A stretch of 64,000 nucleotides of DNA from a virus. Location of the stretch: the IMG/VR virus record IMGVR_UViG_3300032265_001317, positions 28,159 through 92,158 of that record. One strand, 5' to 3'. Position 1 is the stretch's first letter. Every line of letters starts with the position of its first letter. This document shows, in pieces, positions 1,366 through 35,123 of the stretch. The notes below the pieces were generated by a model. That model was not told the DNA's origin, ran no database searches, and saw only the letters and a list, made by a program, of their open reading frames with translations. Made by a program: the position numbers and the translations under genes.

Positions 1366-3675
1366 TTATGCAAATGCATCGCCGGACATGCCTTTTAAAG
1401 CATCATTATTACGTTTTGTGTAATCCGTCATTTCGGCTATGTATGATAGCATTTGTTTGTTTTGTGTATTTAACATGTTCATTAGGCTAGTGATAGCTTT
1501 ATCGGATTCCCCTGTACGGGCTAGTAGAGCCGCAATGCTGTCATTGGATACCACGTTGCCGCTGGCTCCTACGTTTAATAACTCTGGGCCTTTTTCACCA
1601 ACTAGATAGCTACCTGCATTGATTGGACCGCCACTGGCTTTGGGCTGTGGCATAACCGGTTTTACAATATCGTTGAAATCTTTATCTTTTACTAGTCCTT
1701 CTTTTTTGATGTCGTCAATTTGCCTTGTATAGGCTTTGACATCATTTTCGGCTATCTTTCTTTCAAACCAAGTTGAATTCTTATTTTCTAGTACTTTTTG
1801 ATTTTCAGCTAGCTTTGCAACTGCTTCTTTTAATTCTCTCTCAGCTTGTTCTTCTTTGCTACCTGAACCAAACAGCATCCTACCAAATGTGGTATTTCTT
1901 GATTCTTTGACAATAAAGTCAAGTACATCTTTGAATACTGCTCCCATACCTTTTTTAATATCATCCCAAAATCCCATTATCGCTGGCTTGATATCTTTGG
2001 CCCAAAAATCCTTGATTGCTGTACCTACTGGTCCATCCATGAATTCCTTATAGGTCTTTTTAATATTATTCCATGCTTCGGTTGCTTTAGATGATAACGT
2101 ATCAAAAAATTCTTTTGAAGTTTTTGCATTGCCAAGATCTTTGAACGCACTTCCAAGCCAGCCAGTAACATCGCCGAATGATTTTATTAATCCGTCTAAC
2201 ATTCCCGATAGTGGACCACCGTCCTTTGTTAAACCTTCGGCCATTTTCATAAATGTTTCGCTATAGCCCACCAGTTGTGTTGTTACCGGACCAAGCACTT
2301 TGTTCATCATAGCAGTTAAACCATTACCAAAATTCTGTATCGATTGATTAGCTTGTCCTAGTGCCGCGGCATTACCAGCACCTTGTTCGTCTTGACGTTT
2401 TTTTGCATTTTCATAAGCTTCGGCTATGGTAATATTGCCTTTTCTTAATTGTTGACCCATATTGATCATAGGTGCGCCAACATTGGTAAACATTTCGGCG
2501 TTCACTGCACGTTGTTGATCTGTCATACTGTTACTCCAATCAACAATATTACCGCTGGCCTTTCCTAATTTGTCTAACATTATTTTTTTTGCTTCTTCGG
2601 GAGAGTATCCTTTAATAACTAACTCTCTAGAAAGCTGTGCAATTTCTGTATACATGCCTCTGCTGGCTGTGTTTAAATCCTGTCCGGCTTTAGTGGTTGG
2701 TCCAATAATACCTTGACTTCCTAACTTGATAGCATCGGCTACCCCAGGTCCAAATGTGGCGCTAACAGTTTCTAACGAATCTAATACTGCCTTACCACCT
2801 TTGTCAAGACTACCTTTAAATAGCTGGAAGCCTTGGTCATTCATATTCTTTTTAAGTATGGCTTCAACATCAGCTTTTTGTATACCTGTTAATTTTGTCA
2901 ATCCATCAAGCTCAACCAAATAATCTTTTGTTTTTTCTGCTAGCTGGTCAGATGTCAACGCATTTTTAGTACCCATGATACCTTGCCTAGCAATAACCAT
3001 AGCTAGTCCAGCACCGGCCTCATCTGCTGTGTATCCTAGACCAAAAAGTTGTTTAGAAAATTTACTGCCAGGCCCTAACAATGCTCCGCTAGCTTGAGTA
3101 AATTTATCTATTCCGCTTTGCACATCAAACCCCATGGTTGAAAATATTTCACCGTTTTGACTTACGATTGCAGAAAATCCTTGCAATGATAATCCCGACT
3201 TGGCGGCCGCTGTACTCATGGCAAATAGATCTCCGCCAAAGCTGGCACCAGCTTTGGTCATGTTTCTATAAAATCCAGCAAGTTTATCCGCATAGTCAAA
3301 AACTTCTGCAATAATAGGAGCCAATCTACCCAGTAAAGGAATATCCTTAAACACCAACGCCAGTTGTCCCAGGGAAGCAGTACCATTCATTGCGGCTTTG
3401 GAAAAATCATAGAAATTGCCAGCTAAATCTGTTGCAGTGCCAACAATGCCGCCAATTACAGTACCTAGTAGATTAAACGGAACAGCTATTGCTTTGGCCG
3501 CAAGTCCTGCAACACTAAAACTGCTAGCGGCCGAGGAGGCTGCTGACGCCAATCCACCAGTTGGACTATTAGTAGCGGTGCCACCAGACGCTTTGATAAA
3601 ATTTGATAAGTTTACGTTCATGGCCTTAGCCACTAATAGTAGTTCTTGTAGTGTAGCTTCTGATGCACCGTTCAT
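1366..3675 (-). CDS. Tail tape-measure protein
   Basis: Probable tail length tape measure (769 residues), the rod-like protein inside the tail tube that sets tail length. Residues about 30-150 are Ala/Gly-rich hydrophobic segments, followed by long helical stretches. The C-terminal region holds the motif ASGGPINAGSYLVGEKGPEL, a hallmark of tape-measure proteins of many tailed phages. T4 gp29 (590 residues) is the functional counterpart, but direct similarity is not evident by eye. The start at 3675 lacks a clear Shine-Dalgarno site, and M19 is an alternative start. A late-type element (GATAAATA on this strand) lies at 3732-3739. The divergent neighbour is the gp26-like gene with a frameshift extension, matching the usual chaperone/tape-measure pairing in phage genomes. 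Confidence 0.8.
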   Translation of the reverse strand: MNGASEATLQELLLVAKAMNVNLSNFIKASGGTATNSPTGGLASAASSAASSFSVAGLAAKAIAVPFNLLGTVIGGIVGTATDLAGNFYDFSKAAMNGTASLGQLALVFKDIPLLGRLAPIIAEVFDYADKLAGFYRNMTKAGASFGGDLFAMSTAAAKSGLSLQGFSAIVSQNGEIFSTMGFDVQSGIDKFTQASGALLGPGSKFSKQLFGLGYTADEAGAGLAMVIARQGIMGTKNALTSDQLAEKTKDYLVELDGLTKLTGIQKADVEAILKKNMNDQGFQLFKGSLDKGGKAVLDSLETVSATFGPGVADAIKLGSQGIIGPTTKAGQDLNTASRGMYTEIAQLSRELVIKGYSPEEAKKIMLDKLGKASGNIVDWSNSMTDQQRAVNAEMFTNVGAPMINMGQQLRKGNITIAEAYENAKKRQDEQGAGNAAALGQANQSIQNFGNGLTAMMNKVLGPVTTQLVGYSETFMKMAEGLTKDGGPLSGMLDGLIKSFGDVTGWLGSAFKDLGNAKTSKEFFDTLSSKATEAWNNIKKTYKEFMDGPVGTAIKDFWAKDIKPAIMGFWDDIKKGMGAVFKDVLDFIVKESRNTTFGRMLFGSGSKEEQAERELKEAVAKLAENQKVLENKNSTWFERKIAENDVKAYTRQIDDIKKEGLVKDKDFNDIVKPVMPQPKASGGPINAGSYLVGEKGPELLNVGASGNVVSNDSIAALLARTGESDKAITSLMNMLNTQNKQMLSYIAEMTDYTKRNNDALKGMSGDAFA

Positions 3676-3751: not shown

Positions 3752-4630
3752 ATGCAACCAACAACCTTTCCAACGCCAGGAGCAAGACAAAATCCGTTGA
3801 CTAGCTACATGCGTCAACCAAAGATTTATATCAAATTGCCCAGCCAAGGAAACTATTGGCCTGCAAAAAGTATCAACATGCCCGAAAATGGTGAAATCCC
3901 AGTCTACTCAATGACAGCAAGAGATGAATTGGTATTCAAAACTCCCGATGCATTGCTGAATGGACAAGCTGTAGTAGATGTTATTCAAAGTTGTATGCCA
4001 AATATCAAAGATGCATGGCAACTACCCAGCATCGATCTTGACATGATTTTAATTGCTATACGTTTGGCTACATATGGCGAAAAAATGACTATTAAACATA
4101 CCATTCCTGTTATCAAAGAAGAAGTGGAATACGAAATTGATCTTAGAATGTTATTAGATCAACAGAGCCAAAATATCTGGGCTGAACAAGTAGCGATCGA
4201 CGACAACATGATTGTGTACGTAAGACCTTTAACCTATAGACACATAACCCAGGCCAGCATCAAGAGTTTTGAAACCAGCAGGATCATGAACATGGTCAAC
4301 GATGAATCTATACCAGATGATAAAAAAATTGAAATGTTCCAACAGAGCTTTGCCATATTGACCAAAGTCACAGTTGATATGCTCAGTGAAGGAATTTACA
4401 AAATAGTGACTCCGGACGCAGAAGTAACTGATAGGAAGTTTATACAAGAGTTTGTTAATAACAGTGACAAGGTGGTGTTTGAAAAAATCAATCAACACTT
4501 ATCTGAGATGAAAAAATTAAACGATCTTAAGCCTTTGCAGTTCTCTACCACTGACGAACAAAGAGCACAAGGTGCTCCAGAAAGCTACGAAGTACCTATT
4601 AACTTCAATCAATCAGATTTTTTCGCATAA
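3752..4630 (+). CDS. 26: Baseplate hub assembly protein, gp26-like
   Basis: This 292-residue protein belongs to the T4 gp26-type baseplate family (recognisable N-terminus MRQPKIYIKLPSQGNYWP and a central region with RLATYGEKMTIKH). In T4, gp26 is needed to assemble the central baseplate hub. The ATG at 3752 has a good site (GGAG, 7 bases upstream) and a late-type element at 3703-3710. The last codons are GAT TTT TTC GCA TAA: a canonical slippery heptamer, T TTT TTC in the zero frame, sits two codons before the stop, and the -1 frame continues into the next reading frame (see 4636-4854). Two products are therefore expected: 292 residues unshifted and 367 residues shifted. Family assignment is fairly sure; the frameshift is inference from sequence. 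Confidence 0.82.
   Translation: MQPTTFPTPGARQNPLTSYMRQPKIYIKLPSQGNYWPAKSINMPENGEIPVYSMTARDELVFKTPDALLNGQAVVDVIQSCMPNIKDAWQLPSIDLDMILIAIRLATYGEKMTIKHTIPVIKEEVEYEIDLRMLLDQQSQNIWAEQVAIDDNMIVYVRPLTYRHITQASIKSFETSRIMNMVNDESIPDDKKIEMFQQSFAILTKVTVDMLSEGIYKIVTPDAEVTDRKFIQEFVNNSDKVVFEKINQHLSEMKKLNDLKPLQFSTTDEQRAQGAPESYEVPINFNQSDFFA
4618..4624 (+). promoter_or_regulatory. Candidate -1 ribosomal frameshift site (T TTT TTC)
   Basis: Slippery heptamer of the X XXY YYZ class in the zero frame of the gp26-like gene, just before its stop at 4628-4630. The -1 frame is open from 4603 (a TAA in that frame lies at 4600-4602), so the two frames overlap only 4603-4630, and the slippery site lies inside that overlap. 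Confidence 0.6.
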
Positions 4631-4635
4631 GGCTT

Positions 4636-4854
4636 TTGACTTTAACACTTGACGAAATCCAGGAAGTAGTTACAGAGTTAGAAAAAGAGTCAAAAGCCAT
4701 TAAAGAAGAAATTTACAAACTAGCCTGGTACATGCGCGGTGCTATTAGCATCACAGAAGCATACACACTTGACACTCAAGACAGAGAAATCTTGAACAAG
4801 ATTATCGTGGATAATTTACAGACTGCTAAAGAAACAGGGTTGCCGTTTTTTTAA
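4636..4854 (+). CDS. C-terminal extension of gp26-like protein (-1 frame) or small tail protein
   Basis: Open frame in the -1 phase relative to the gp26-like gene. It could start at TTG 4636 (72 residues), but there is no properly spaced ribosome site: AAGG is only 3 bases away. More likely it is reached by -1 slippage at 4618-4624, which would give residues R-I-R-L-L and then this segment, a 367-residue fusion ending at 4854. The sequence is a charged helix (EVVTELEKESKAIKEEIYKL) followed by WYMRGAIS and the end TAKETGLPFF. Small proteins of this kind follow gp26 in other T4-like phages. By position it resembles the G/GT tail assembly chaperone arrangement; function is inferred. Confidence 0.6.
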   Translation: MTLTLDEIQEVVTELEKESKAIKEEIYKLAWYMRGAISITEAYTLDTQDREILNKIIVDNLQTAKETGLPFF

Positions 4855-5975
4855 ATTTCAATACCCAAGAATCTACTTTGGTATCCGACACGACTTTCAC
4901 TTAACCCACCTTGGTGTAATTTTAAGTTAGGTTTTCCATCTGTACCAGTTGCCTGTGTTTGATCTGCTGGTTCGGCTTGCGATTGTGCTGGTTGTTCCTG
5001 TTCTGGGTGAATAGTATTAAAGTACCCTAATACTTTTTTAGCGTCATCAGATGAAAATGCCGCAACTACTTGATGTAAATCTAGCATAGACATCAATGCA
5101 CCACGTGCCATTTGATAATCTTGTTTCATGTGTGTCGGTATTGCCGCTACTTTTCCGGCGGCTGTTGCTAATGCACCCGGAGTGGCTTTAGCTATATCTG
5201 CGGCTTTGCTAGCACCTGTCTTTATACCTTGTACTGCTTGCGTACCTAGCTTACCGGCAATACGACCAGCTTTGGTCATTGTACCTGTATTAGGATTTTT
5301 AGAAAGATTGGTTGCTCTAGTTGGATCGTTGTACCCAAACTTGGCACCTTTTACAAAGTTACCAATACCTTTTTTAGCATTGCTGGCCATACCTTTGAGA
5401 TCAAATTCGTCAAGTTCTAGACTTTCTCCCATGGCCACTCGTTTCTGCAACATTGTTCTAACTCGTTCAACATCGTCGCCTTTTAGGTGTTGTAACGATG
5501 TTAATAAACTTTTATCGCTTAGTGGATTCGCTACTTCAGCTGATTTTGGTGCAGATACATCACCAGCATTGCCCATAGCGTTTGAACCCGATACAGCAGT
5601 GGAAGCACCTGTGTTATTATTTACAGCTGGAGTACCTGATACCGCCGGAGATGATCCTGTGTTATTTGGCACAGCAGTATTACCAGTTGCCGCTGTGTTA
5701 TTTGAATTATTATATGATTGTGACGAACTTCCGCCATCAAGCTGATCAGCTTGTGCTCTAAGTTTTTGTGCTTTGGCTTGATTAATAGCCTGTTTGCTGT
5801 CACCACTTACTGCACTTCTACCTGCGGTATATCCTTTACCAAATGCATCACCAGCGCCACGGATTCCACCTACTACAGCACCAGCACCTTTGGCTAGTCC
5901 TCCAGCAATAGAACCTATAGCACTTCCAATACCTTCTTCAGTATTGCTTTCTAAAATAATATCATTGATACGCAT
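4851..5975 (-). CDS. Gly/Ala-rich phage protein of unknown function
   Basis: I do not recognise this 374-residue protein. Residues about 15-60 are a Gly/Ala-rich hydrophobic stretch (GSIAGGLAKGAGAVVGGIRG). Residues about 85-140 are low-complexity Asn/Ser/Thr/Ala with imperfect repeats (NNTGSSPAVSG, NNTGASTAVSG). A compact part (about 145-190) contains LTSLQHLKGDDVERVRTMLQKR. The last residues are VGYQSRFLGIEI. The 3' end overlaps the end of the convergent gp26-extension frame by 4 bases. The start (MRINDIILES) has an AAGGAATTCC region upstream and a late-type element at 6004-6011, so a virion or assembly role is plausible but not shown. Confidence 0.75.
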   Translation of the reverse strand: MRINDIILESNTEEGIGSAIGSIAGGLAKGAGAVVGGIRGAGDAFGKGYTAGRSAVSGDSKQAINQAKAQKLRAQADQLDGGSSSQSYNNSNNTAATGNTAVPNNTGSSPAVSGTPAVNNNTGASTAVSGSNAMGNAGDVSAPKSAEVANPLSDKSLLTSLQHLKGDDVERVRTMLQKRVAMGESLELDEFDLKGMASNAKKGIGNFVKGAKFGYNDPTRATNLSKNPNTGTMTKAGRIAGKLGTQAVQGIKTGASKAADIAKATPGALATAAGKVAAIPTHMKQDYQMARGALMSMLDLHQVVAAFSSDDAKKVLGYFNTIHPEQEQPAQSQAEPADQTQATGTDGKPNLKLHQGGLSESRVGYQSRFLGIEI

Positions 5976-21998: not shown

Positions 21999-24900
21999 AT
22001 GGCTAATTCAATCAAAACAATTAATTTGTTGCCCGAGTTTTTAAGAACAGATAAAAATAGCAAATTTTTATCTAGCACTGTTGACCAATGGATTAAAAAA
22101 CCAGAACTAGAACGTATTGATGGATACGTGGGATCTACATTGACTCCTACTTACAATTCTACTGCCGATGTTTATATTTCAGAATCGTTGCCTTTAAGAA
22201 AACAATATCAACTTGAACCTGCGGTTGTAATAAAAGATAATCAAAGTATTGTAACTGGTGCAGTAGCCATTGACGACCTTGTTAACGAAATTTCTATCAA
22301 AGGTGGACAAACAGGAAATTTTGACAAACTATTTAGAAGTGAATTTTATTCGTACGATCCGCATATTGATTTGGATAAGCTAGTTAACTATACTGAATAT
22401 TATTGGTTAACAACTGGTCCAAATACTGTTGTTATAAGTGGACAACCTACAAATACAACAAGTACGTTTACCGTGGTTGATAATGAAGTTAAATCTGCAT
22501 TTATTTTTACACCTAACGGACTAACACCAAACCCGATTGTTACCTTGTATAGAGGAAATACATATAATTTTGAAATAAGTTCAGTATATAAATTTTATGT
22601 AAAAACTGATTCATCATCTGGTCCTTTTGGTTTGTTAACTAGAAATATAACAAATAACGGAATTACAACTGGCACTATTACATTAACGGTTGATCAATAC
22701 ACTCCTGAAACTTTATATTATATTTCTGAAACAGATGACAAGGTACAAGGACAATTTGTTATTAAAGATTCTACACAAAATTCGATAATTGATGTAGAAA
22801 AAGAAGTTATTGGGAAAAAGAGTTATAGATCAGGAACCGGAATTGAATTATCAAACGGAATGAAAGTTCGTTTTGGTGGAACGGTTATCCCTGAATCATA
22901 TCAAAATAAAGAATACTGGGTAGAAGGTGTTGGTGAATCTATTAGCTTGATAGATTATGAATTATTATCATCCCCTGAGGCAATGGCCAGTGTATTTGAC
23001 GAAAACTTTGATGCTACTGGATTTGACGATTATCCGTTTGATAATTTTAAAACACTGCCGATTACCCCCGAGTATATTACTATTAATCGTGCCAGTAAAG
23101 ATTTAAATCCATGGTCTAGATACAATCGATGGGTTCATTCGGATGTAATTAGAATTAGTGCAGAAGCATCTGGGCAAGATCCGGTATATTCAGTTAACCT
23201 TAGGGCAAAACGTCCTATTATTGAATTTAAAGCAGATTTAAAATTATATAATTTTGGAACAACTGGTGCAACAAACGTTGACCTAATTGACAATGTGACG
23301 CACGATGCATTTTCAGCTGTCGAAGGATCTGCTGGATATTATGTTGACGGACTTTTATTACAACAAGGGCAACGAATTATATTCAATGCAGATACTGATT
23401 CAACTGTAAGAGAAAAAATCTACGAAGTAAATTATGTTACTGTTAACGGATATAAATCAAGATTACAATTAGTTCCTGTAACCACAAGCATTTCCGGATG
23501 TTCTGTTTCTGTAAATTACGGAAATGATTTTGCAGGTACTGCATGGTGGTACAACGGATCTAATTGGGTATATGCTCAACAACATAACAAACTTAATCAA
23601 GCTCCTTTATTTGATTTATTTGACAAAAATGGTTATAGTTACAGCGATACCACTGCTTATCAAAGTAATTTTAGTGGAACTAAAATATTTGGTTACGAAG
23701 TAGGTACCAACGGTGCTAATGATGCTGTATTAGGGTTTCCTTTAAAATATAAAAATAGTGTAGGCGTTGGTAGCTATCTTTTTAAAAATTATTTTACTAC
23801 AGATCAAATTTCTGTTTCAGTTAATAACGTTGAAACTATTAGTGTATCAGCAGGGCAAACATTTTTAAAATTTGCTCACGCCGCAGGCGATGTATATTCA
23901 AATGTATGGACAGCCACTGAGCCATATCCTATTCCGTTGAACGCAAATGGATATTATGATACACCTTTAGGACTTACAAATAATCCACTAAACGGACCTA
24001 TTTCTAATTTTACTCTAAGTGAAATCAGCGATCATCTTGGAACTGCTGTTGCTAGATTGCCTAACTTTGTAGGAGCATTCCCAGGAGTTAGTAATTTACG
24101 TGACAGGCCAGATGTTGCTAGATATGCCAGCAGATTAATTTCAAATGCAAATCCTATGGCATTTGCACATTTGTTTATTGGTAAAAAAGAACACAGCATC
24201 GTTGATGCAGTTACAAAAGTAGGCGACCAATACAATCAATTTAAAATGTCATTTTTGAATAAAATGATATCAGTTGGAAATCTTAACAATCCAATTGCAT
24301 CAGTTGATACAATTTTAGCAGAATTAAATTTAGGAAAAAATTTACAATCTCCTTATTTCTTATCTGATATGATTGCCTATGGCAATGACAAAGTAACCAG
24401 ACAATGGACTGTAAAAAATATTAGAAATACAGTCTACCCTATTTCTGCTGACTTTGATCCTGTTGCTTTAGGTTTAAGATCGGTACTAGTTTATTTGAAT
24501 GGATCTCAACTGGTATTAGGGCAAGATTATAATTTTATTACCAACGATTCATCAATAGAAATTTTAACCACATTAATGCTGGGCGATGTAATTACAGTTA
24601 ATGATTATGCTACAACCGAAGGGTGCTTTGTACCGCCTACTCCGACCAAACTTGGATTATATCCTAAATTTAAACCAGCAAAATACATTGACGATACCTA
24701 TGCTACACCGACACCTGTAATCCAGTGCCACGATGGTAGCATAATGGTTGCCTATAACGATTTTAGAGATGACATTGTTCTTGAATTAGAAAAACGAATT
24801 TACAATAATATTAAGGCAGTATATCAAACAGAACTATTTGATATTAATTCTGTAATACCCGGCGCATTCAGAAATAGTGAGTATACATTAGCCGACTGTA

Positions 24901-27900
24901 ATTCTATATTAATTAACGATTTTATTAAATGGTCTGGTTTTTATGGAATTGAGTACACAGAAAATTCTACCTTCGATCCAGACAATTCTTTCACATGGAA
25001 TTATTCTGGTAGTACCAACAAGTTATTATCTATACAAGTTGATGGAAACTGGAGAGCAGTTTATAAATTCTTCTACGATACTGATCGCCCTCACACCGCA
25101 CCGTGGGAAATGCTAGGATTAACTGCTATGCCTGATTGGTGGGAGTCGTTGTATGGTCCTGCCCCGTATACCAACGGTAACTTATTATTATGGGAAGATT
25201 TAGAAAAAGGATTAATAAAATATCCTAGCGGTTGGGTACGTGATCCTATATATGCTAGACCCGATTTGAGAAATATTATACCGGTAGACGAAGGCGGCAA
25301 TTTACTTGATCCTACGGTATTATTAAGTGAGTACACACCATACAGTGTTAGACAAAATTGGAAATTTGGTGACCTAGGACCTGCAGAAACAGCATGGCGC
25401 CGTAGTAGCCATTGGCCTTTTGCGTTACAAAAATTATTAGCATTATTAAAACCTGCTAGCTATGCATCATTAATGTATGATCCTAGTAGGATGACACAAA
25501 ATAAAGCAGGACAGTGGTCGTACGATATTGCCGGGTCTTTCTTAAATCCTAAAAATGTAAAAATATTTGATACACTTACTACTTTAACAAGCGGTTATAG
25601 CGTATTACTTGTTGAATCAGGTAAACAGAGATCTGTTAATTACGTCAACGAGTTAACACAAGATTTAAATTTTTTCGATATTAATTTATTTCACAAAGTA
25701 GGCGGATTTGTCAACAAGGGAAATTTACAAATTGTTATCGATGCATACGAGCCAACCAGCACTGGCCCGGGTGCATTGCTTCCTCAAGAAAATTATCAAT
25801 TATATCTTAATACCAGTAACCCAGTTAATACAACAAGTATTTCTGGTTTAATTATACAAAAAGTCGACGGCAAATTTGTTATAAAAGGGTATGACAAGTA
25901 TCGTCCTTACTTCACAGTATATACTCCTGTAAGAAATAGTTCAACTCCAACATTAAGTGTTGGAGGAATCAGTTCACCATATATAAATTGGTCTGCTGGT
26001 ACAGCCGATGCAGGAGCATCTAATCTTAATTCGATAGATCTTACAACAGCCAATAGCTCTCCTGTTGGCAAGTTTTATAAAACAGGACAGATTGTTAACT
26101 ACGGTAATAGATATTATATAGTAATTAAAGATCACTATGCTGAGAGTGTGTTCAATGTAGCTTATTATCAGTCACTTCCATCGTTGCCTATCTCGGGAGG
26201 CGCAACAGTTCAAACATATTATAAGTTTGACAAGGTAGGAGTAAGAATTCCTTATGGAACACAGTTTGATAACATACAACAAGTGTATGATTTTATTGTT
26301 GGCTACGGCGACTGGTTGTCAGATCAGGGATTTATTTTTAATCAATATAATTCAACTTTAAATTCTGTATTAGATTGGAATTTCACTGCTAAAGAATTTT
26401 TATATTGGACTACACAAAATTGGGCCAATAATAGTATTATTGCTCTTAGCCCGTTTGCGGATCAACTTCAATTTAAATTTAGCAATAGTGTTGTAGATAA
26501 TATTTTTGATAGTTTTTATGATTACGGAATTTTAAAAGAAAATGGTCTCGAATTTCCTAAAAATAATTTAAATATCGGCAGGGACGAAGGTGTTTGTACT
26601 ATTAGATCTATAAACACCACAGAAGGAATTTATTTTGCACAATTAAATTCTGTACAAAAAGAACACGCCATGGTGTTTGATAACACCACAGTTTTCAACG
26701 ATACTATCTATGACATTGAAACTGGATATCGTCAACGCCGCGTAAAATTAATTGGGTTTAGAACTGCCAACTGGAATGGAGATTATTTCACTCCTGGATT
26801 TGTGTACGACACAGCTCAAATATCTACCTGGGCCCAATTTACTGATTACAAATACGGCGAAGTTGTAAGATTTAACAGCAAATATTATTCAGCAATACAA
26901 GATGTTATTGGATCCAGTAAATTTGATTTTACTAAATGGGTGTTACTCGGAAGCAAGCCTGTAGCAGAATTAATTCCTAACTTTGATTACAAAATTAATC
27001 AGTTTGAAGATTTTTATAGTCTTGACATTGACAACTTTGACAGTAACCAACAAGAGCTTGCACAGCACTTGGTTGGATATACACCACGAGTATATCTAAA
27101 TAATATCTTTATTAATCCTATTGCACAATATAAATTCTATCAAGGATTTATTAAAGAAAAAGGATCAAAAAATTCTATTATCAAATTAAGTAAAGCCAGT
27201 ATACAAAATCAGCAAGGATCAATTTCTTTTAATGAAGAATGGGCATTTAGAGTTGGTAGTTATGGTTCTTACGAAACGTACAACGAAATAGAAACTACTC
27301 TACATGAAGGAAGTTTCAAATCAAATCCTCAGGCAATTAACTTTGTAGATACTGTGCCAGTAGTTCCTGATGATTTATTATTGTATAAAACTCCTGGCAA
27401 TTTAGCTATAGTTCCTGATGATTATGTTCCTTCTAGCACGTTTGTAACAACATCAACTTCTAATTTTGAATTAATGACAGCGGGCTATGTAAATCTAAAC
27501 GATGTTACATCTACTGCTTATAATGAAGATAGTTTTATTGCCATTGCCAATACTCGTGCATTAAACGATGGTGAAGTTATATGGCTAGGAAATACCAATA
27601 ATGGTGATTGGGATGTTCGTAGATATCAAAGATCTACAGCCGGTATTATTTCCGTACAGATATATAATCCTGCAGAAAGTATTTCTTTCTCAACTGATGT
27701 TCCACACGAATTGAGCATAGGAGAAATTATTTCTGTATCTCAATATGACGACCAAGTCAATGGGGTATATCGAGTAATTGACATATTGTCAAGAACAGAG
27801 TTTGTTGTATCTTCTACACTTTCTTTTATTACTACATTTACTACAGATTCTCCAGGTCTGTTATTCAGCTTCAAAAGTGTTAGATATAGTAATTTTGATT

Positions 27901-30900
27901 CTATACCTTTGGATCAAGAATTACAAGAATTGCCATATGGAGCTAAATTCTGGATTGACAATGACATTTCTAGCAGTTGGAAAGTTTATGAAAAAATTGA
28001 CAATTATTCAATAACACATATTACAACCAATACCAGTGGATCATACTACGGTGCAACAATATACAAAAACAAAGGCGAGAACATAGTAATTGAAGCATCT
28101 CCGTATTATTCTTCTCCAAGTAGATTTGACATAGGTACAATATTTGTCAAGTATATTGATCTTGATGGATATATTTTTAATTATAATATTAATCAAGCAT
28201 CTTATAATCAATACTATACAGGTACAGTACATACTGAGTTTGGAGCATCTGTTGTATATGACAGTCAAGAATATAACAATACAGGCTTTGGGTTGTTCTA
28301 TGCAGGAGCTCCTGGCACTAGCGGAATTAAATCTTCAAGTAGCCCAACAGGTCTTAGATATGCATCGGCGGCCGGAACTGCATCTTCACGTGTTCATGAA
28401 GGTTTAGTAAAAATCAGTAGCGTTGACCCATTGTTGTTTACAGAATTTACAGAACATGTGTTGTTAAGTCCTGCACCGGCCAGTTATGATCGTTTTGGAC
28501 AATCAATATTTGTACAAACTAGTAACACATCTACTAAATCTCTGTTGGTAGGTGCCCCAGGTAACAACGGAGTGCTTGCCGGCGCAGTACATTTATATAA
28601 TATTTCGTTGAATACTACTACTAATATTACTTTCAACAGAAGTATCAGTCCTCTGGTTTACTGGCTTGGCGGCGAATGGGGCTACAGCATATCTGGTTTA
28701 TCAAACGCTAGCACAGTTGCGATTAGTGCTCCTAGTTACCAACAAGGTGTAGGTTATGTTGCAATATTAACTGGTACAAATTATACCAATCTTTCTCAAA
28801 TAATTTTTGGTAACACAGCCGGCCTTGATAAAAAAAGTAGATTTGGCGACAAGGTAATATTGTCCAATGATGGTACATATCTATTTGCTACAGCGCCAGG
28901 ATTTATTAATTTTGATAATTCAAAAGGAGCTGTCGCAGTATTTAAATCTGTAAATGGTGCATTTGAATTTAAACAATTAATTACTAATCCAGTAGCAGGG
29001 CCTGGAATGACTTTTGGACAAGACATTGATATCGGTACCATGTCTGACAAGTTAATTGTATCTGCACTAGGAACTGATAGAATTGATAGATCTTTTGATA
29101 ACAAGCTAGCAGACAATACAACGTTTGATAGTAAGACTACAATATTTGAAGATAGCATGACAAAATCTGGATGCGTTTTTGTATATGATAGATACAATGA
29201 ACGTTTTGTTTTTGCACAAGAAATTAATCCTGGAAATTTAACAACAGCTACCAACTTTGGTCAAAGTATAGTGTTAGATGACACTGATGTTTTAATTGGT
29301 GCTCCTAATATTAACATCACAGCTGATGGACAAACTGATTATAGTGCAACATACAGATACAGTAAAATTGATCCGTTAGCAGACAGTTGGAAAATATTAA
29401 GACAATTTGATAATCTAGTGGACGTCAATACTTTACAAAAAGTTAGATTGATCGATACTTCTAATGATACTGTTGTTACATACCTTGATGTTATTGATCC
29501 ATTAAAAGGAAAAATTTCAGGAATTGCCGACGAAGAAATACGCTATAAAACATCAGTTGATCCTGCCATCTATTCTATTGGTACTACATCTACCACTGTA
29601 TTGCAAGATACAAATTGGACCGATATCCAGGTTGGTGAACTATGGTGGGATTTATCAACTGTTAAGTATGTCTGGTACGAACAAGGCGACTTGAATTATA
29701 GAAAAAATAATTGGGGAATGTTATTTCCTGGATCAAGCATTGATATTTACGAATGGGTAGAATCAACATATCTACCAAGCGAGTGGGCCGCGTTAGCAGA
29801 TACTGCTAACGGCATTGCTAAGGGAATTAGTGGACAACCAAAGTTTCCTGATAACACTGTATTATCTGTAAAACAAGGTTACGATTCAGTTTCAAATTCT
29901 TTTACTAACATTTACTATTTCTGGGTAAAAAATAAAGTATTGGTTCCTGAGACTAAAAACAGAAGAATGTCTTCATACGATGTTGCATCTCTAATAAATG
30001 ATCCTTCGTATAACGGATCAATGTATGCCGCTATTATTTCTGGCAATGGTGTAATGTTATCGGATGTTGCATCTGAATTAGTTGGCGACCGTATTAATTT
30101 AAATATTGCATTTGACAATATAAAAAATCAAATACCGAGACATACTGAATGGTTGTTAATTGAAGAAAATTCTGTAACATCAGCTCCTAATACGTTGTTA
30201 GAGAAAAAATTAATTGACAGTTTACTTGGACATGATTCTCTTGGTAATGCTGTACCCGATCCTGCATTATCAAGCAGAGTTCGTTATGGAATAGGTATTA
30301 GACCACAGCAAACCTTGTTTAAAGATAGACTAGGTGCCTTGAGAAATCTAGTTGAATTTTCAAATTCTGTCTTGAAAGAAAATATCATTACAGGTCGCTA
30401 TAATTTTTCTAATTTAAATGCTCAGGAAAGTATTCCTGATCAATATTCACACGAGTATGATCGTATTGTTGAAGACAACTATACCTTAGAAACAATTGAT
30501 ACTAGAAAGCTATCTCAGGCAAAATTAACAGCACAAATATATGACGGTAGAGTAATTGGGGTTACAATTGATAATCCAGGATTTGGTTATATCATAAGTC
30601 CTACAGTAACAGTTACCGGTAACTGCATTTCAAGTGCAGTAATTACTACTGCTATTGATTCCAGTGGACGAGTAATATCAGTTGACATTGTTGATGCCGG
30701 AAACGGATATTCTGCAACACCTACATTAGAAGTAAGACCTTTTACTGTTATAGTTTTAGCAGATAGCATTTACAATGGCAAATGGTCAAAATTTGTATGG
30801 AAAAGCGAACTTGCACTATTTGTTAGATCTCATACACAAAAATATAATACATCTCTGTACTGGAACAAGGTTGACTGGACAAGTGCCGATTACAATCAAT

Positions 30901-33900
30901 ATCAAGATTATTTGTTTACAGTTGATGCGGTATACGGAATTTACACATTGTCAAATGTTGCAGTGGGCGAATATGTCAAAGTTAAAAACAGCGGCGACGG
31001 CAATTATATCATACTAGAAAAAATGCCTACTGGCTCAGTGGGTACGTTTGGCAATGATTACAATATTGTTTATAAACAAAATGGAACAATACAAATATCT
31101 GATGCAGTATGGAATACAGCTAATAGTACCTATGGTTTTGATCAGATATCGAGCTTTGACCAAACATTGTATGATCAGACTCCTGATTTAGAATTGCAAT
31201 ATTTGTTATCTGCATTAAAGAATGATATTTTTATAAATGAGCTAAAAGTTAATTGGAATAAATTCTTTTTCAAAGCAGTAAAATATGCAATGTCCGAACA
31301 AAAATTACTAGACTGGGCATTTAAAACTTCATTTATTAATGTTATTAATAATGCAGGTGCGTTGGATCAACGTCCTGTTTATAAACTTCAAAACACACAA
31401 TATTTTGAAGATTACATTAGCGAAGTAAAACCTTACCATAGTCAAATACGTTCGTTCACAACGCAATACGATAATCTAGATCAATCACACAGTTATACAA
31501 CTGACTTTGATTTGCCTACACATTATAATGGCGACACAGGAATTTTTACTTCTATAACCGCAGACAGTACATTAACCAATGTATACCCATGGAAGTCATG
31601 GAGCGATAACAGAACATTTACTGTAGGAAGTATTGTGGTTGGTAATCCGGGCGCAGGATACACCATATCGCCCACTGTTGAAATTACTGCACAACCGGGC
31701 GATCTTGGAACAGGTGCGACCGCTGTTGCATACATACGTTCTGGAGAGATAATTTCTATAGAAGTTACTAATCCTGGTAGCGGATATTTGGTTCCGCCAA
31801 TAGTTAGTATCAAGGGCGGAGGCAGCACAACCTTAACACCTGCTAGAGCCTATGCACAACTCTATAATGGTAAAGTACGTTCAAATACTATTGAAATGAA
31901 ATTCGATCGTATTAATCGTTCTAATCAGATTGGAGATATACGAGTTTCTGATTCCTTTATCTGTAACGGAATACAAAACGAATGGACACTCGGTTGGTTA
32001 GCTGATGCAAACAAATTGGATATCACAGTTACCCTTGATAAAATACGTGTGCTAAGTGCAGATTACACCATAACTTATTACACAGAAAAATACAATGGTT
32101 ATAATAAAAAATATTGCAAAATTGTTTTCTTAAATTATATTCCAAAAAATAATCAAATACTTTCAGTATCTTACAGAAAATCTAAAAATCTGTTCACGGC
32201 ATTAGAAAGAATTGAAAATTATTATGAACCAACAAGCGGAATGCCTGGAAAAGTTCCAGCTCAGTTAATGAGCGGGTTAGAATATCCTAGAACACAAATT
32301 CAAGGGTTAGGCTTAACTGCAACTACACATTGGGACGTATTGTTTGGAACAAATGTATATTCTGGCTTTGGTGATGCATCTTATGCAGATGATATTTCTT
32401 ATTATACCACAGTTTCTTTAACTGGCACAGCACCTGCTGGTACCAGTACTGTATCGGTTAGCACAACTACAGGATTAATGGTTGGACAGTTTGCAAATAT
32501 TATCAGTAATACTGTAAATCAGTTCAGTACCTCAACTGTGAAAATAAAGTCAATTGATACAGCCGGCTCTAGTGTAACATTTAATTCAACTATTATTAAC
32601 ACATTGACTAACGCCACAATTGAATTATGGACATATGATCAAAATTCAACAACATTAGATACAGCTATTGATGGCGGCAATTTAATATACAATACTGCCT
32701 TGGGAATCAATCCAGACGAAATTGTTATTGATGGCGACAAATTTTATACTCCTAGTACTGGATTTGCTCCTGAAGAGTTATTAGACGGACAGGTAACTGA
32801 AAGTCTTGGTATCAATGTATATACAAAAAATGCCAACGGTGCTCCTTTAATTTTTTCTAGCTCTTTTGATATAGATGCAAATGTTCAAGTTGTAGAATCT
32901 TTAACTATGATTCCGACTACAGTTAATAGCATTACTGTGAGTTTTAATAATAGGGTATTTGCTTATAACTCTACCACAAACTTTATGTCAACTTCGGAGT
33001 TTAATATAGATTGGGGAACTGGTTCTATTATTCTTCCTCCTCAATCGATTGGTGGAAAAGTATCTTATAGAATCATTGGTATCGGTGGAGGCAACCCAGA
33101 TGCATTTGCCGGTGTTATCGATTATCAAATACTTTCTGAGCACGATGAAGCCGTTGGTACTGTGGTAAGTTTATCGGGTATTAATACTGTAAAGAGTGCG
33201 TTTGTTACCGTGGATGGTATCGCTATCAGTACAGGAACTACTGGTTTATATTATACATTAGGACCAGATAGTCTTTTAAACGAAAGAGCCGCAGTAACAG
33301 TATATAATTTGCCAAGCGGTGCAAATACAATACAAGCATGGTTCTTTGGAACTGATGTCAATTATTATAATGAATTAGAAGAGCAAATATTTACTGTTGG
33401 TGTTGGGTTGCCTGTAACTTCTTTTGTTCTTACAAACCCGCCAAATGTAATACATCCTGCTGATGCAGAAGTTCTTGTAGAAATCAAAGACGGCGCTGGC
33501 CGCCGTCAATTGCTACCACCTTATATCAGTTATTATCAAGTTACCAATACCAACGATAGAACATTTACTATTGATAATCATGTATTACGTCCACCTTCGA
33601 CTTACAACTTGAATACAGTTAGAGTATATCGTAATGGAGAAGTGTTGTTACCTGGCTTTGATTTTAATGTCAATGTTAACGACAATACTGTTACTGTATA
33701 TCCAAATATTTTAGCAGTGGGTGATGCTATTGCTGTATTAGGATTGGTACCGGGTGATTATGATTATGACATTGTTGGAAATATTTTAAATGTTCCACTA
33801 CAGTCTGGTCAAGGCGTGTTGAATGCCGAAATAAAAATTATTACCTATAACGATCAAGATGGAATGCTGATTCAGGCAGAAAGATTTCCTGGAAATGCCA

Positions 33901-35123
33901 ACAAGAGATTTAAACTTAGTAGATCCGTTCTACATTTAGATTATGTTTGGGTCAGTTTAAATGGTGTTCCTCTAAAGAGCGGAATTGATTATGATGTACT
34001 TGACGATGCAGTAACGCTACAATTATCTGATGCATTTATCATAACATCTGCGGATGACATTTTAGTTACCAGTATTAGTAGTAATAAATTATCTTCTACT
34101 GTGCTCGGCTATAGAATTTTTATTGATATGCTTGGCAGAACTCATTATAAGCGTCTAAGCAAGCAGGCAACCACACGACTAACACAGCCGTTGTCTTATA
34201 CAGATACAGAAATTTATGTGGAAGATTCAACAGTTTTAACTCCTCCGTTGTTATCACAAAAAATACCAGGAGTTGTGCTGATTGATGGAGAACGTATTGA
34301 GTATCTACAAATTGATGGAAATGTTTTAAGAAAATTACGCAGAGGAACATTGGGTACATCACCATCTTTCTATGCAGATATCAATACAAAAGTAATTGAT
34401 CAGAGCCCTAGTCAGACAGTTCCTTACACTGAAATACCTAAAAAACAGATACAATTTACACGTTCATCTACTAACATTTATAACATTAGTACTGGAACAT
34501 TTAGTACAGCAACAACATTTAATACAGGTACAGTTATTAAATCTGATGGTATTTTATTGTCGCAGGCATTTACTGCTGAAAATCAAATAGCGGTATATTA
34601 CGGCGGCAGAGAGCTAAGAAAAACAGGATCATTTATTCACGATACGACTTTTGCTTATGATAGTCCTCCTGGATCTGTTCTAGGAACTACCGCAACTGTA
34701 GCAGGGTTGCCATTGACCACAACAATAGGAGATTCATATATTGTAACCTCTACAAATCAAGTATGGGTTTATACCGGTGATACCAAAATTGACGCAGTTA
34801 AAGGATATGTTTACCAAGGATTGACTTATCTTGCCCCGGAGTTTACTGTTAATACTTCTACTGGCGTTTTAATGTTAAATATGTCTAAAGAGGTCCAAGA
34901 TGATATTGAACTTGTTATTGTACAAAAACAATACAGTCAAACAGCAGAATGGAACAACTATGGAATTTCGTTAATGAATAGTACTACCGACCCTGCTAAA
35001 TTCTTACAACAACAGCCTGCGGAGCTACCAGATATTTGGTACTACGGCGGCGACGTTACACTAAGAACTAGTGGAGGAACTCCATTAACTGATGGAAATC
35101 AGGAACCAATACAAGGATTTTAA
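21999..35123 (+). CDS. Giant baseplate/tail structural protein (4374 residues)
   Basis: The largest gene of the window, one fifth of it. The N-terminus (INLLPEFLRTDKNSKFLSST, ERIDGYVGSTLTP) and a central part (about 950-1100: FIKWSGFYGIEYTEN, YDTDRPHTAPWEMLGL) match very large virion proteins in marine T4-like phages that occupy the gp7/gp8 position. Residues about 2150-2450 hold FG-GAP/integrin-type propeller repeats (DRFGQSIFV, LLVGAPGNN, RFGDKVILSND, FGQSIVLDDTDVLIGAPN). Later there are at least three Gly-rich modules of the form NPGFGYIISPTVTVTG (about 2855-3270). The role is probably wedge periphery plus receptor contact; that is inferred from position and domains. There is no frameshift or stop through 13 kb. 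Confidence 0.8.
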   Translation: MANSIKTINLLPEFLRTDKNSKFLSSTVDQWIKKPELERIDGYVGSTLTPTYNSTADVYISESLPLRKQYQLEPAVVIKDNQSIVTGAVAIDDLVNEISIKGGQTGNFDKLFRSEFYSYDPHIDLDKLVNYTEYYWLTTGPNTVVISGQPTNTTSTFTVVDNEVKSAFIFTPNGLTPNPIVTLYRGNTYNFEISSVYKFYVKTDSSSGPFGLLTRNITNNGITTGTITLTVDQYTPETLYYISETDDKVQGQFVIKDSTQNSIIDVEKEVIGKKSYRSGTGIELSNGMKVRFGGTVIPESYQNKEYWVEGVGESISLIDYELLSSPEAMASVFDENFDATGFDDYPFDNFKTLPITPEYITINRASKDLNPWSRYNRWVHSDVIRISAEASGQDPVYSVNLRAKRPIIEFKADLKLYNFGTTGATNVDLIDNVTHDAFSAVEGSAGYYVDGLLLQQGQRIIFNADTDSTVREKIYEVNYVTVNGYKSRLQLVPVTTSISGCSVSVNYGNDFAGTAWWYNGSNWVYAQQHNKLNQAPLFDLFDKNGYSYSDTTAYQSNFSGTKIFGYEVGTNGANDAVLGFPLKYKNSVGVGSYLFKNYFTTDQISVSVNNVETISVSAGQTFLKFAHAAGDVYSNVWTATEPYPIPLNANGYYDTPLGLTNNPLNGPISNFTLSEISDHLGTAVARLPNFVGAFPGVSNLRDRPDVARYASRLISNANPMAFAHLFIGKKEHSIVDAVTKVGDQYNQFKMSFLNKMISVGNLNNPIASVDTILAELNLGKNLQSPYFLSDMIAYGNDKVTRQWTVKNIRNTVYPISADFDPVALGLRSVLVYLNGSQLVLGQDYNFITNDSSIEILTTLMLGDVITVNDYATTEGCFVPPTPTKLGLYPKFKPAKYIDDTYATPTPVIQCHDGSIMVAYNDFRDDIVLELEKRIYNNIKAVYQTELFDINSVIPGAFRNSEYTLADCNSILINDFIKWSGFYGIEYTENSTFDPDNSFTWNYSGSTNKLLSIQVDGNWRAVYKFFYDTDRPHTAPWEMLGLTAMPDWWESLYGPAPYTNGNLLLWEDLEKGLIKYPSGWVRDPIYARPDLRNIIPVDEGGNLLDPTVLLSEYTPYSVRQNWKFGDLGPAETAWRRSSHWPFALQKLLALLKPASYASLMYDPSRMTQNKAGQWSYDIAGSFLNPKNVKIFDTLTTLTSGYSVLLVESGKQRSVNYVNELTQDLNFFDINLFHKVGGFVNKGNLQIVIDAYEPTSTGPGALLPQENYQLYLNTSNPVNTTSISGLIIQKVDGKFVIKGYDKYRPYFTVYTPVRNSSTPTLSVGGISSPYINWSAGTADAGASNLNSIDLTTANSSPVGKFYKTGQIVNYGNRYYIVIKDHYAESVFNVAYYQSLPSLPISGGATVQTYYKFDKVGVRIPYGTQFDNIQQVYDFIVGYGDWLSDQGFIFNQYNSTLNSVLDWNFTAKEFLYWTTQNWANNSIIALSPFADQLQFKFSNSVVDNIFDSFYDYGILKENGLEFPKNNLNIGRDEGVCTIRSINTTEGIYFAQLNSVQKEHAMVFDNTTVFNDTIYDIETGYRQRRVKLIGFRTANWNGDYFTPGFVYDTAQISTWAQFTDYKYGEVVRFNSKYYSAIQDVIGSSKFDFTKWVLLGSKPVAELIPNFDYKINQFEDFYSLDIDNFDSNQQELAQHLVGYTPRVYLNNIFINPIAQYKFYQGFIKEKGSKNSIIKLSKASIQNQQGSISFNEEWAFRVGSYGSYETYNEIETTLHEGSFKSNPQAINFVDTVPVVPDDLLLYKTPGNLAIVPDDYVPSSTFVTTSTSNFELMTAGYVNLNDVTSTAYNEDSFIAIANTRALNDGEVIWLGNTNNGDWDVRRYQRSTAGIISVQIYNPAESISFSTDVPHELSIGEIISVSQYDDQVNGVYRVIDILSRTEFVVSSTLSFITTFTTDSPGLLFSFKSVRYSNFDSIPLDQELQELPYGAKFWIDNDISSSWKVYEKIDNYSITHITTNTSGSYYGATIYKNKGENIVIEASPYYSSPSRFDIGTIFVKYIDLDGYIFNYNINQASYNQYYTGTVHTEFGASVVYDSQEYNNTGFGLFYAGAPGTSGIKSSSSPTGLRYASAAGTASSRVHEGLVKISSVDPLLFTEFTEHVLLSPAPASYDRFGQSIFVQTSNTSTKSLLVGAPGNNGVLAGAVHLYNISLNTTTNITFNRSISPLVYWLGGEWGYSISGLSNASTVAISAPSYQQGVGYVAILTGTNYTNLSQIIFGNTAGLDKKSRFGDKVILSNDGTYLFATAPGFINFDNSKGAVAVFKSVNGAFEFKQLITNPVAGPGMTFGQDIDIGTMSDKLIVSALGTDRIDRSFDNKLADNTTFDSKTTIFEDSMTKSGCVFVYDRYNERFVFAQEINPGNLTTATNFGQSIVLDDTDVLIGAPNINITADGQTDYSATYRYSKIDPLADSWKILRQFDNLVDVNTLQKVRLIDTSNDTVVTYLDVIDPLKGKISGIADEEIRYKTSVDPAIYSIGTTSTTVLQDTNWTDIQVGELWWDLSTVKYVWYEQGDLNYRKNNWGMLFPGSSIDIYEWVESTYLPSEWAALADTANGIAKGISGQPKFPDNTVLSVKQGYDSVSNSFTNIYYFWVKNKVLVPETKNRRMSSYDVASLINDPSYNGSMYAAIISGNGVMLSDVASELVGDRINLNIAFDNIKNQIPRHTEWLLIEENSVTSAPNTLLEKKLIDSLLGHDSLGNAVPDPALSSRVRYGIGIRPQQTLFKDRLGALRNLVEFSNSVLKENIITGRYNFSNLNAQESIPDQYSHEYDRIVEDNYTLETIDTRKLSQAKLTAQIYDGRVIGVTIDNPGFGYIISPTVTVTGNCISSAVITTAIDSSGRVISVDIVDAGNGYSATPTLEVRPFTVIVLADSIYNGKWSKFVWKSELALFVRSHTQKYNTSLYWNKVDWTSADYNQYQDYLFTVDAVYGIYTLSNVAVGEYVKVKNSGDGNYIILEKMPTGSVGTFGNDYNIVYKQNGTIQISDAVWNTANSTYGFDQISSFDQTLYDQTPDLELQYLLSALKNDIFINELKVNWNKFFFKAVKYAMSEQKLLDWAFKTSFINVINNAGALDQRPVYKLQNTQYFEDYISEVKPYHSQIRSFTTQYDNLDQSHSYTTDFDLPTHYNGDTGIFTSITADSTLTNVYPWKSWSDNRTFTVGSIVVGNPGAGYTISPTVEITAQPGDLGTGATAVAYIRSGEIISIEVTNPGSGYLVPPIVSIKGGGSTTLTPARAYAQLYNGKVRSNTIEMKFDRINRSNQIGDIRVSDSFICNGIQNEWTLGWLADANKLDITVTLDKIRVLSADYTITYYTEKYNGYNKKYCKIVFLNYIPKNNQILSVSYRKSKNLFTALERIENYYEPTSGMPGKVPAQLMSGLEYPRTQIQGLGLTATTHWDVLFGTNVYSGFGDASYADDISYYTTVSLTGTAPAGTSTVSVSTTTGLMVGQFANIISNTVNQFSTSTVKIKSIDTAGSSVTFNSTIINTLTNATIELWTYDQNSTTLDTAIDGGNLIYNTALGINPDEIVIDGDKFYTPSTGFAPEELLDGQVTESLGINVYTKNANGAPLIFSSSFDIDANVQVVESLTMIPTTVNSITVSFNNRVFAYNSTTNFMSTSEFNIDWGTGSIILPPQSIGGKVSYRIIGIGGGNPDAFAGVIDYQILSEHDEAVGTVVSLSGINTVKSAFVTVDGIAISTGTTGLYYTLGPDSLLNERAAVTVYNLPSGANTIQAWFFGTDVNYYNELEEQIFTVGVGLPVTSFVLTNPPNVIHPADAEVLVEIKDGAGRRQLLPPYISYYQVTNTNDRTFTIDNHVLRPPSTYNLNTVRVYRNGEVLLPGFDFNVNVNDNTVTVYPNILAVGDAIAVLGLVPGDYDYDIVGNILNVPLQSGQGVLNAEIKIITYNDQDGMLIQAERFPGNANKRFKLSRSVLHLDYVWVSLNGVPLKSGIDYDVLDDAVTLQLSDAFIITSADDILVTSISSNKLSSTVLGYRIFIDMLGRTHYKRLSKQATTRLTQPLSYTDTEIYVEDSTVLTPPLLSQKIPGVVLIDGERIEYLQIDGNVLRKLRRGTLGTSPSFYADINTKVIDQSPSQTVPYTEIPKKQIQFTRSSTNIYNISTGTFSTATTFNTGTVIKSDGILLSQAFTAENQIAVYYGGRELRKTGSFIHDTTFAYDSPPGSVLGTTATVAGLPLTTTIGDSYIVTSTNQVWVYTGDTKIDAVKGYVYQGLTYLAPEFTVNTSTGVLMLNMSKEVQDDIELVIVQKQYSQTAEWNNYGISLMNSTTDPAKFLQQQPAELPDIWYYGGDVTLRTSGGTPLTDGNQEPIQGF

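Follow-up and report, generated by a model that had tools for sequence, protein, structure and literature searches.

A predicted −1 frameshift signal in the tail assembly chaperone gene of an uncultured T4-superfamily myovirus

The stretch analyzed here, called the window in the following, comprises 64,000 nucleotides (nt) of the virus record IMGVR_UViG_3300032265_001317 (positions 28,159 to 92,158). It contains a gp26-type gene that is followed, in the −1 register, by a second open frame without a conserved start, and we interpret both together as a single tail assembly chaperone (TAC) gene with two predicted products.

The reading frames and the slippery site

The following features were assigned at this locus.

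3752–4630, + strand: predicted short form TAC-N, gp26-type (PF12322/phrog_150), an open reading frame (ORF) of 292 amino acids (aa); assigned by Pfam, PHROG and a structure model.
4618–4624, + strand: zero-frame slippery heptamer T_TTT_TTC, one codon ahead of the stop.
4628–4630, + strand: zero-frame stop codon TAA, one codon past the heptamer, within the spacer.
4624–4854, + strand: −1-frame extension TAC-C, 76 aa and a stop codon, proposed to correspond to the C-terminus of T4 gp51; from translation and conservation.
3752–4854, + strand: predicted long form TAC-NC, 367 aa after a −1 shift, deduced from the heptamer register and the two frames.
4631–4643, + strand: 5′ arm of a hairpin, GGCTTTTGACTTT, following a spacer of 6 nt after the heptamer; from stem search, fold z-score and covariation.
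4686–4698, + strand: 3′ arm of the hairpin, AGAGTCAAAAGCC, within the −1-frame coding region; from stem search, folding and covariation.

The 3′ end of the gp26-like ORF reads GAT TTT TTC GCA TAA, which places the heptamer exactly in the register X_XXY_YYZ. In the −1 register, an open frame starts at 4603 and has its stop codon at 4852–4854. After a −1 slip, reading would continue with CGC ATA AGG CTT and residue 291 would be joined to 76 new residues (RIRLLTL...GLPFF), with SDFF-RIRL at the junction. The heptamer near the gp26-like stop, the limits of the −1 frame and the sizes of the two forms had all been proposed from the letters of the window beforehand (in the following called the original prediction), and sequence and translation agree with them.

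In-frame T_TTT_TTC is rare in the window, with just two occurrences in the 17,610 codons of its ORFs of at least 180 aa. The other one lies at about 25670 (+ strand) inside a 4374-aa ORF (21999–35123) and is probably due to chance because its −1 extension has only two residues.

Conservation of the heptamer and the downstream hairpin

A near-identity DNA search of phage records gave no match to the locus; relatives were therefore sought by protein. Scanning viral contigs with the gp26-like protein yielded a first set of 50 loci, 47 of which reached the stop. A second scan and loci added from genome contigs led to a larger set of 117 distinct loci carrying the site. The identity of gp26 among these relatives went down to ~35% in the first scan and fell further among isolates of jumbo phages and cyanophages.

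Each of the 47 loci that reached the stop in the first scan had T_TTT_TTC in the same register together with the −1 extension, which usually ended with LPFF-like residues. In the larger set, the heptamer was T_TTT_TTC in 114 of the 117 loci, T_TTT_TTT in two (XacN1 and RAS14) and T_TTT_TTG in one (phiM9), and the extension was 76 aa long in 101. The same arrangement was found in the isolates Agrobacterium phage Atu_ph07, Escherichia phage 121Q, Klebsiella phage RaK2, Pectobacterium phage CBB, Pseudomonas phage PA5oct, Xanthomonas phage XaC1, Vibrio phage 2.275 and Sinorhizobium phage Phosso, as well as in the cyanophages S-SSM6a and S-RIM8, the KVP40-like phage phi-pp2 and the Aeh1-like phage Asswx_1. 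In XacN1 and RAS14 the zero frame extends 10–11 codons further, and their short form therefore has a different C-terminus.

Judged against codon usage, the conservation of the heptamer exceeds coding need. In the remainder of the genes from the first 50 loci, TTT and TTC occur in a ratio of 405:179 and NNT and NNC in a ratio of 4998:2293. The chance of NNT-TTT-TTC calculated from codon usage is 0.146 per locus; multiplied naively across 47 loci this gives ~1e-39, although this is not a true p-value because the loci are related. The alignment across related phages by which the original prediction was to be checked spoke for frameshifting: heptamer and frame offset were conserved in the stop-reaching relatives of this clade, in none of which an independent start has taken the place of the heptamer.

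The sole clear exception among the loci examined is Vibrio phage VAP7 (Ackermannviridae; locus L066, 2267–3195), in which a gp26-type gene without T_TTT_TTC is followed by a small gene coupled to it by TAATG. This layout is an alternative to both frameshifting and duplication. The gp26 genes of T4, 44RR and Miro likewise lack the heptamer; these phages carry a separate gp51.

Downstream of the heptamer we detected a hairpin that was absent from the original prediction. In the window its stem starts 6 nt past the heptamer, has 13 base pairs and spans 68 nt. The region 4625–4704 folds with −20.3 kcal/mol (z = −4.34), and none of 200 shuffled sequences folded as well. A stem at the expected place (p ≤ 0.05) was found in 34 of the 50 loci of the first set, whereas the six control offsets gave 2–6 of 50, and in the larger set the hairpin was supported in 90 of 117 loci, starting 5–6 nt after the heptamer. 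Folding of a short, 35-nt downstream stretch gave no signal (mean z −0.43), because the main loop of the window-class hairpin is ~42 nt long; longer stretches revealed the hairpin.

Covariation was analyzed by hairpin class. The window class provided 42 gap-free sequences, in which 88% of the cells pair and 53 cells are changed on both sides, against a shuffled mean of 20 (0/500 shuffles), where the shuffles ignore relatedness and the class members were picked partly by the pairing of their first eight pairs. The covariation score of this class was 0.258, compared to 0.125 after shuffling (0/500) and to at most 0.064 when slid by 1–3 columns. A second class with a span of 50 nt gave the same covariation result. 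The nucleotide immediately after the heptamer is a G in every sequence of both class alignments. The Rfam scan of positions 4500–4860 returned no match. Our search of the open-access literature turned up no previous account of the covarying hairpin; this does not prove that it is undescribed, but it may be new.

Origin of the second frame

The original prediction had named TTG 4636 as the only start of the −1 frame and considered it to be without a usable ribosome site. TTG 4636 is indeed the first in-frame start, yet ATG 4732 and GTG 4807 are in frame as well, both within the conserved core of the extension (ATG 4732 in its WYMRG core). An AAGG does lie ahead of it at 4629–4632, but its spacing to TTG 4636 is only 3 nt. 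An ATG is missing from the −1 frame ahead of the conserved core in 45 of the 117 loci, and 15 have no ATG, GTG or TTG there at all. As judged from this comparison, the initiation signals and ribosome sites of the second frame are not conserved, while the heptamer persists.

These counts bear on the possibility that the second frame represents a small gene of its own (“gp51”), reinitiated or read from its own start, next to which the heptamer would be incidental. Such a gene would fit the ATGA overlapping the zero-frame stop in 20 of the 117 relatives, including the two closest ones (L001 and L002), and the TAATG or TGATG in three, as seen in KVP40-type phages, 121Q and phiM9. It would also fit VAP7 and the public records of S-RIM8 and phiM9, in which a stand-alone “baseplate hub assembly catalyst” is annotated. 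The window itself, however, has ATA where those relatives have the overlapping ATG. Together with the loci that lack a start before the core, the near-invariant heptamer and a hairpin placed at the spacing of a frameshift signal, this led us to reject a separate gene as very improbable.

The frame might also change at an earlier step, by slippage of RNA polymerase. Some bacterial genes use transcriptional slippage. The run of six Ts could serve as a slippage site, and both ribosomal and transcriptional slippage are treated in a review (PMC5009743). Yet six Ts, as present in the TTTTTTC of 114 loci, are short for polymerase slippage. The exact register of the heptamer and a covarying hairpin 5–6 nt downstream of it fit a ribosomal signal and its stimulator, and we consider polymerase slippage to be even less probable than a separate gene.

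A sequencing or assembly artefact, for which a frame break in a homopolymer would be the classic signature, or a decayed fusion gene is refuted for practical purposes by the same break across 117 distinct loci, which stem from independent metagenomes and independently sequenced isolate genomes, and by protein-level selection in both frames. The −1 extension is conserved as a protein among the relatives, and the closest ones differ from the window mainly at third codon positions of the −1 frame (8, 2 and 20 differences at positions 1, 2 and 3 in L001; 7, 0 and 18 in L002); selection therefore acts on the extension at the protein level.

Ribosomal frameshifting therefore remains as by far the most probable reading. 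With high confidence, and on the basis of sequence comparison, we propose that 3752–4854 is a tail assembly chaperone gene of a T4-superfamily myovirus that yields a short and a long product by a −1 slip at T_TTT_TTC, with the hairpin probably promoting the slip. Most ribosomes would terminate at 4628 and release the 292-aa TAC-N, the counterpart of T4 gp26. A minority would slip by −1 at the heptamer, where the two tRNA-Phe could re-pair from TTT-TTC to TTT-TTT, and would produce the 367-aa TAC-NC, the counterpart of T4 gp51. By analogy to lambda gpG/gpGT, the short domain would coat the tape measure protein, probably the product of the divergent gene 1366–3675, and the C-terminal domain present in the minority form would recruit tail-tube or baseplate-hub partners. 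We infer from the conserved elements that slippage occurs, that its rate leaves the long form in the minority, that the hairpin stimulates it and that both forms have these binding roles in tape-measure assembly. The logic of lambda G/GT, with gp26 as the short form and a frameshifted long form, had been part of the original prediction and gains support from the conserved heptamer and frame and from the unconserved starts.

Relation to T4 gp26 and gp51 and to the neighboring genes

The short form matched PF12322 in Pfam (1.1e-14; 55.1 bits, cut-off 24.5) and the “baseplate hub” family phrog_150 in PHROG (1.1e-17). An AlphaFold2 model of it, built from an alignment of the window and the loci, reached a predicted local distance difference test (pLDDT) value of 84 and matched models of T4-like “baseplate hub assembly proteins” in BFVD (E 3e-21). 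The gp26 fold also matches BFVD proteins of ~390–550 aa from jumbo phages such as RP12, RSF1 and Special G, which suggests, at the level of models, unrecognized tail chaperones there.

T4 gp26 and gp51 both match PF12322, and gp51 has residues beyond the domain. The gp51 C-terminus of T4-type phages aligned with the frameshift extension of KVP40-type phages and of cyanophages (hhalign probability 97.3, E 1.7e-11). Because of the shared PF12322 domain and these alignments, including a weaker one of the window-type extension given below, we regard the short form as the likely counterpart of gp26 and the long form as that of gp51. When the window-type and the cyanophage extensions were compared directly as profiles, no match resulted (probability 0.6). 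In a phylogenetic tree, gp26 and gp51 of T4, 44RR and Miro group together (95/94), apart from the frameshifting KVP40-/Aeh1-like pair (93/88). This topology fits a duplication that replaced frameshifting in the T4 branch, with the root and several long branches being unsure. Only one PF12322 gene is present in the 92-kb record.

Several observations weigh against the proposed reading of the locus. The window-type extension is collinear with the T4 gp51 C-terminus but matches it weakly (hhalign probability 38, E 3e-4), and a Foldseek search of the short-form model against PDB yielded no match to any solved structure. The 92-kb record is a fragment, and a second PF12322 paralog may lie elsewhere in the genome. 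At the loci with ATGA (20/117) or TAATG/TGATG (3/117), reinitiation could add product. Finally, the hairpin arms are coding, so part of the hairpin conservation could reflect protein constraint.

Frameshifting is reportedly conserved in several T4-like groups, with T4 using genes 26 and 51 instead (attributed to Vladimirov, Gautam & Davidson 2022, Virology 566:9-15). Statements in two papers that cite Vladimirov et al. 2022 point to some T4-like phages having the short and the fused form as separate genes (PMC10885494) and to poly-T sequences as −1 signals in the TAC-N genes of T4-like phages (PMC12846349). Since TAC-N frameshifting has been reported for this group, the mechanism is already known and the locus is a new example in an uncultured lineage. 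The window gene shares with T4 gp26/gp51 the PF12322 family and the logic of a short and a long product; T4 has two paralogous genes for it, whereas the window has one gene with heptamer and hairpin.

Like the window gene, for which this role is assigned by analogy, lambda gpG/gpGT acts as a tape-measure chaperone and adjoins the tape measure gene, whose probable counterpart in the window is divergent, not downstream as in lambda. The lambda slippery site is G_GGA_AAG. Pfam and PHROG scans turned up no lambda-type match, though no test was aimed at membership in the lambda family. In signals of the E. coli dnaX type, the slippery heptamer A_AAA_AAG is followed ~5–6 nt later by a stable hairpin. 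The window signal has this architecture, a heptamer and then a hairpin at that distance, but differs in its T_TTT_TTC and in a long and variable loop (span 32–74 nt).

A passage in Sullivan et al. 2010 (PMC3037559) describes cyanophage gp51 as only ~20% of the T4 length, without the first ~200 residues, and gp51 as absent from Aeh1. In S-RIM8 and S-SSM6a this “gp51” is the −1 extension after T_TTT_TTC. While Sullivan et al. treat it as an independent gene, our evidence points to the tail of a frameshift fusion; if the second part is a frameshift extension, both the short cyanophage gp51 and the reported absence from Aeh1 are explained.

One further row completes the feature list.

1366–3675, − strand: probable tape measure protein, 769 aa, the divergent neighbor and likely client of the chaperone; from homology and synteny.

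The 769-aa ORF is homologous to the “virion structural protein” encoded beside gp26 in Xanthomonas phage XaC1 (E 5e-10); its PHROG match was weak, and BLASTP against the PA5oct neighbor was not significant. Annotations of XaC1, 121Q, PA5oct, RaK2 and CBB give the order portal, structural protein and divergent gp26; the portal position of the window is occupied by an open frame of 450 aa (3–1352, − strand), which is presumably the portal gene. The neighbor also carries a C-terminal GGPINAGSYLVGEKGPELL motif, of a kind found in tape measures. The earlier proposal of a tape measure in the adjacent divergent gene is thus supported by homology, synteny and motif, and the gene probably has this role.

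On the other side, a glycine/alanine-rich ORF of 374 aa (4851–5975, − strand) converges on the chaperone gene, with overlapping stop codons (4851–4853 and 4852–4854); it had no match in Pfam or PHROG. Further downstream, a 947-aa ORF (35126–37969, + strand) consists largely of collagen-like GSxGFTGS repeats and probably encodes a tail fibre or appendage protein.

We see an even chance that this large uncultured T4-superfamily branch, with its near-invariant T_TTT_TTC and a covarying hairpin whose 3′ arm is placed differently from lineage to lineage (spans of ~32, 50 and 68–74 nt) after a constant spacer of ~5–6 nt, uses an undescribed structured stimulator, fitting an origin of T4 genes 26 and 51 by a duplication that replaced frameshifting. 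The analysis would assign a function to a gene pair annotated in records as hypothetical or as stand-alone gp51, and pinpoint the exact site at which two chaperone forms would arise in a fixed ratio. It would also connect genes 26 and 51 of T4 with one frameshifting gene. The covarying hairpin would represent a natural series of stimulators, in which one fixed slippery site is combined with varied loop geometry and on which the requirements of a frameshift stimulator could be studied.
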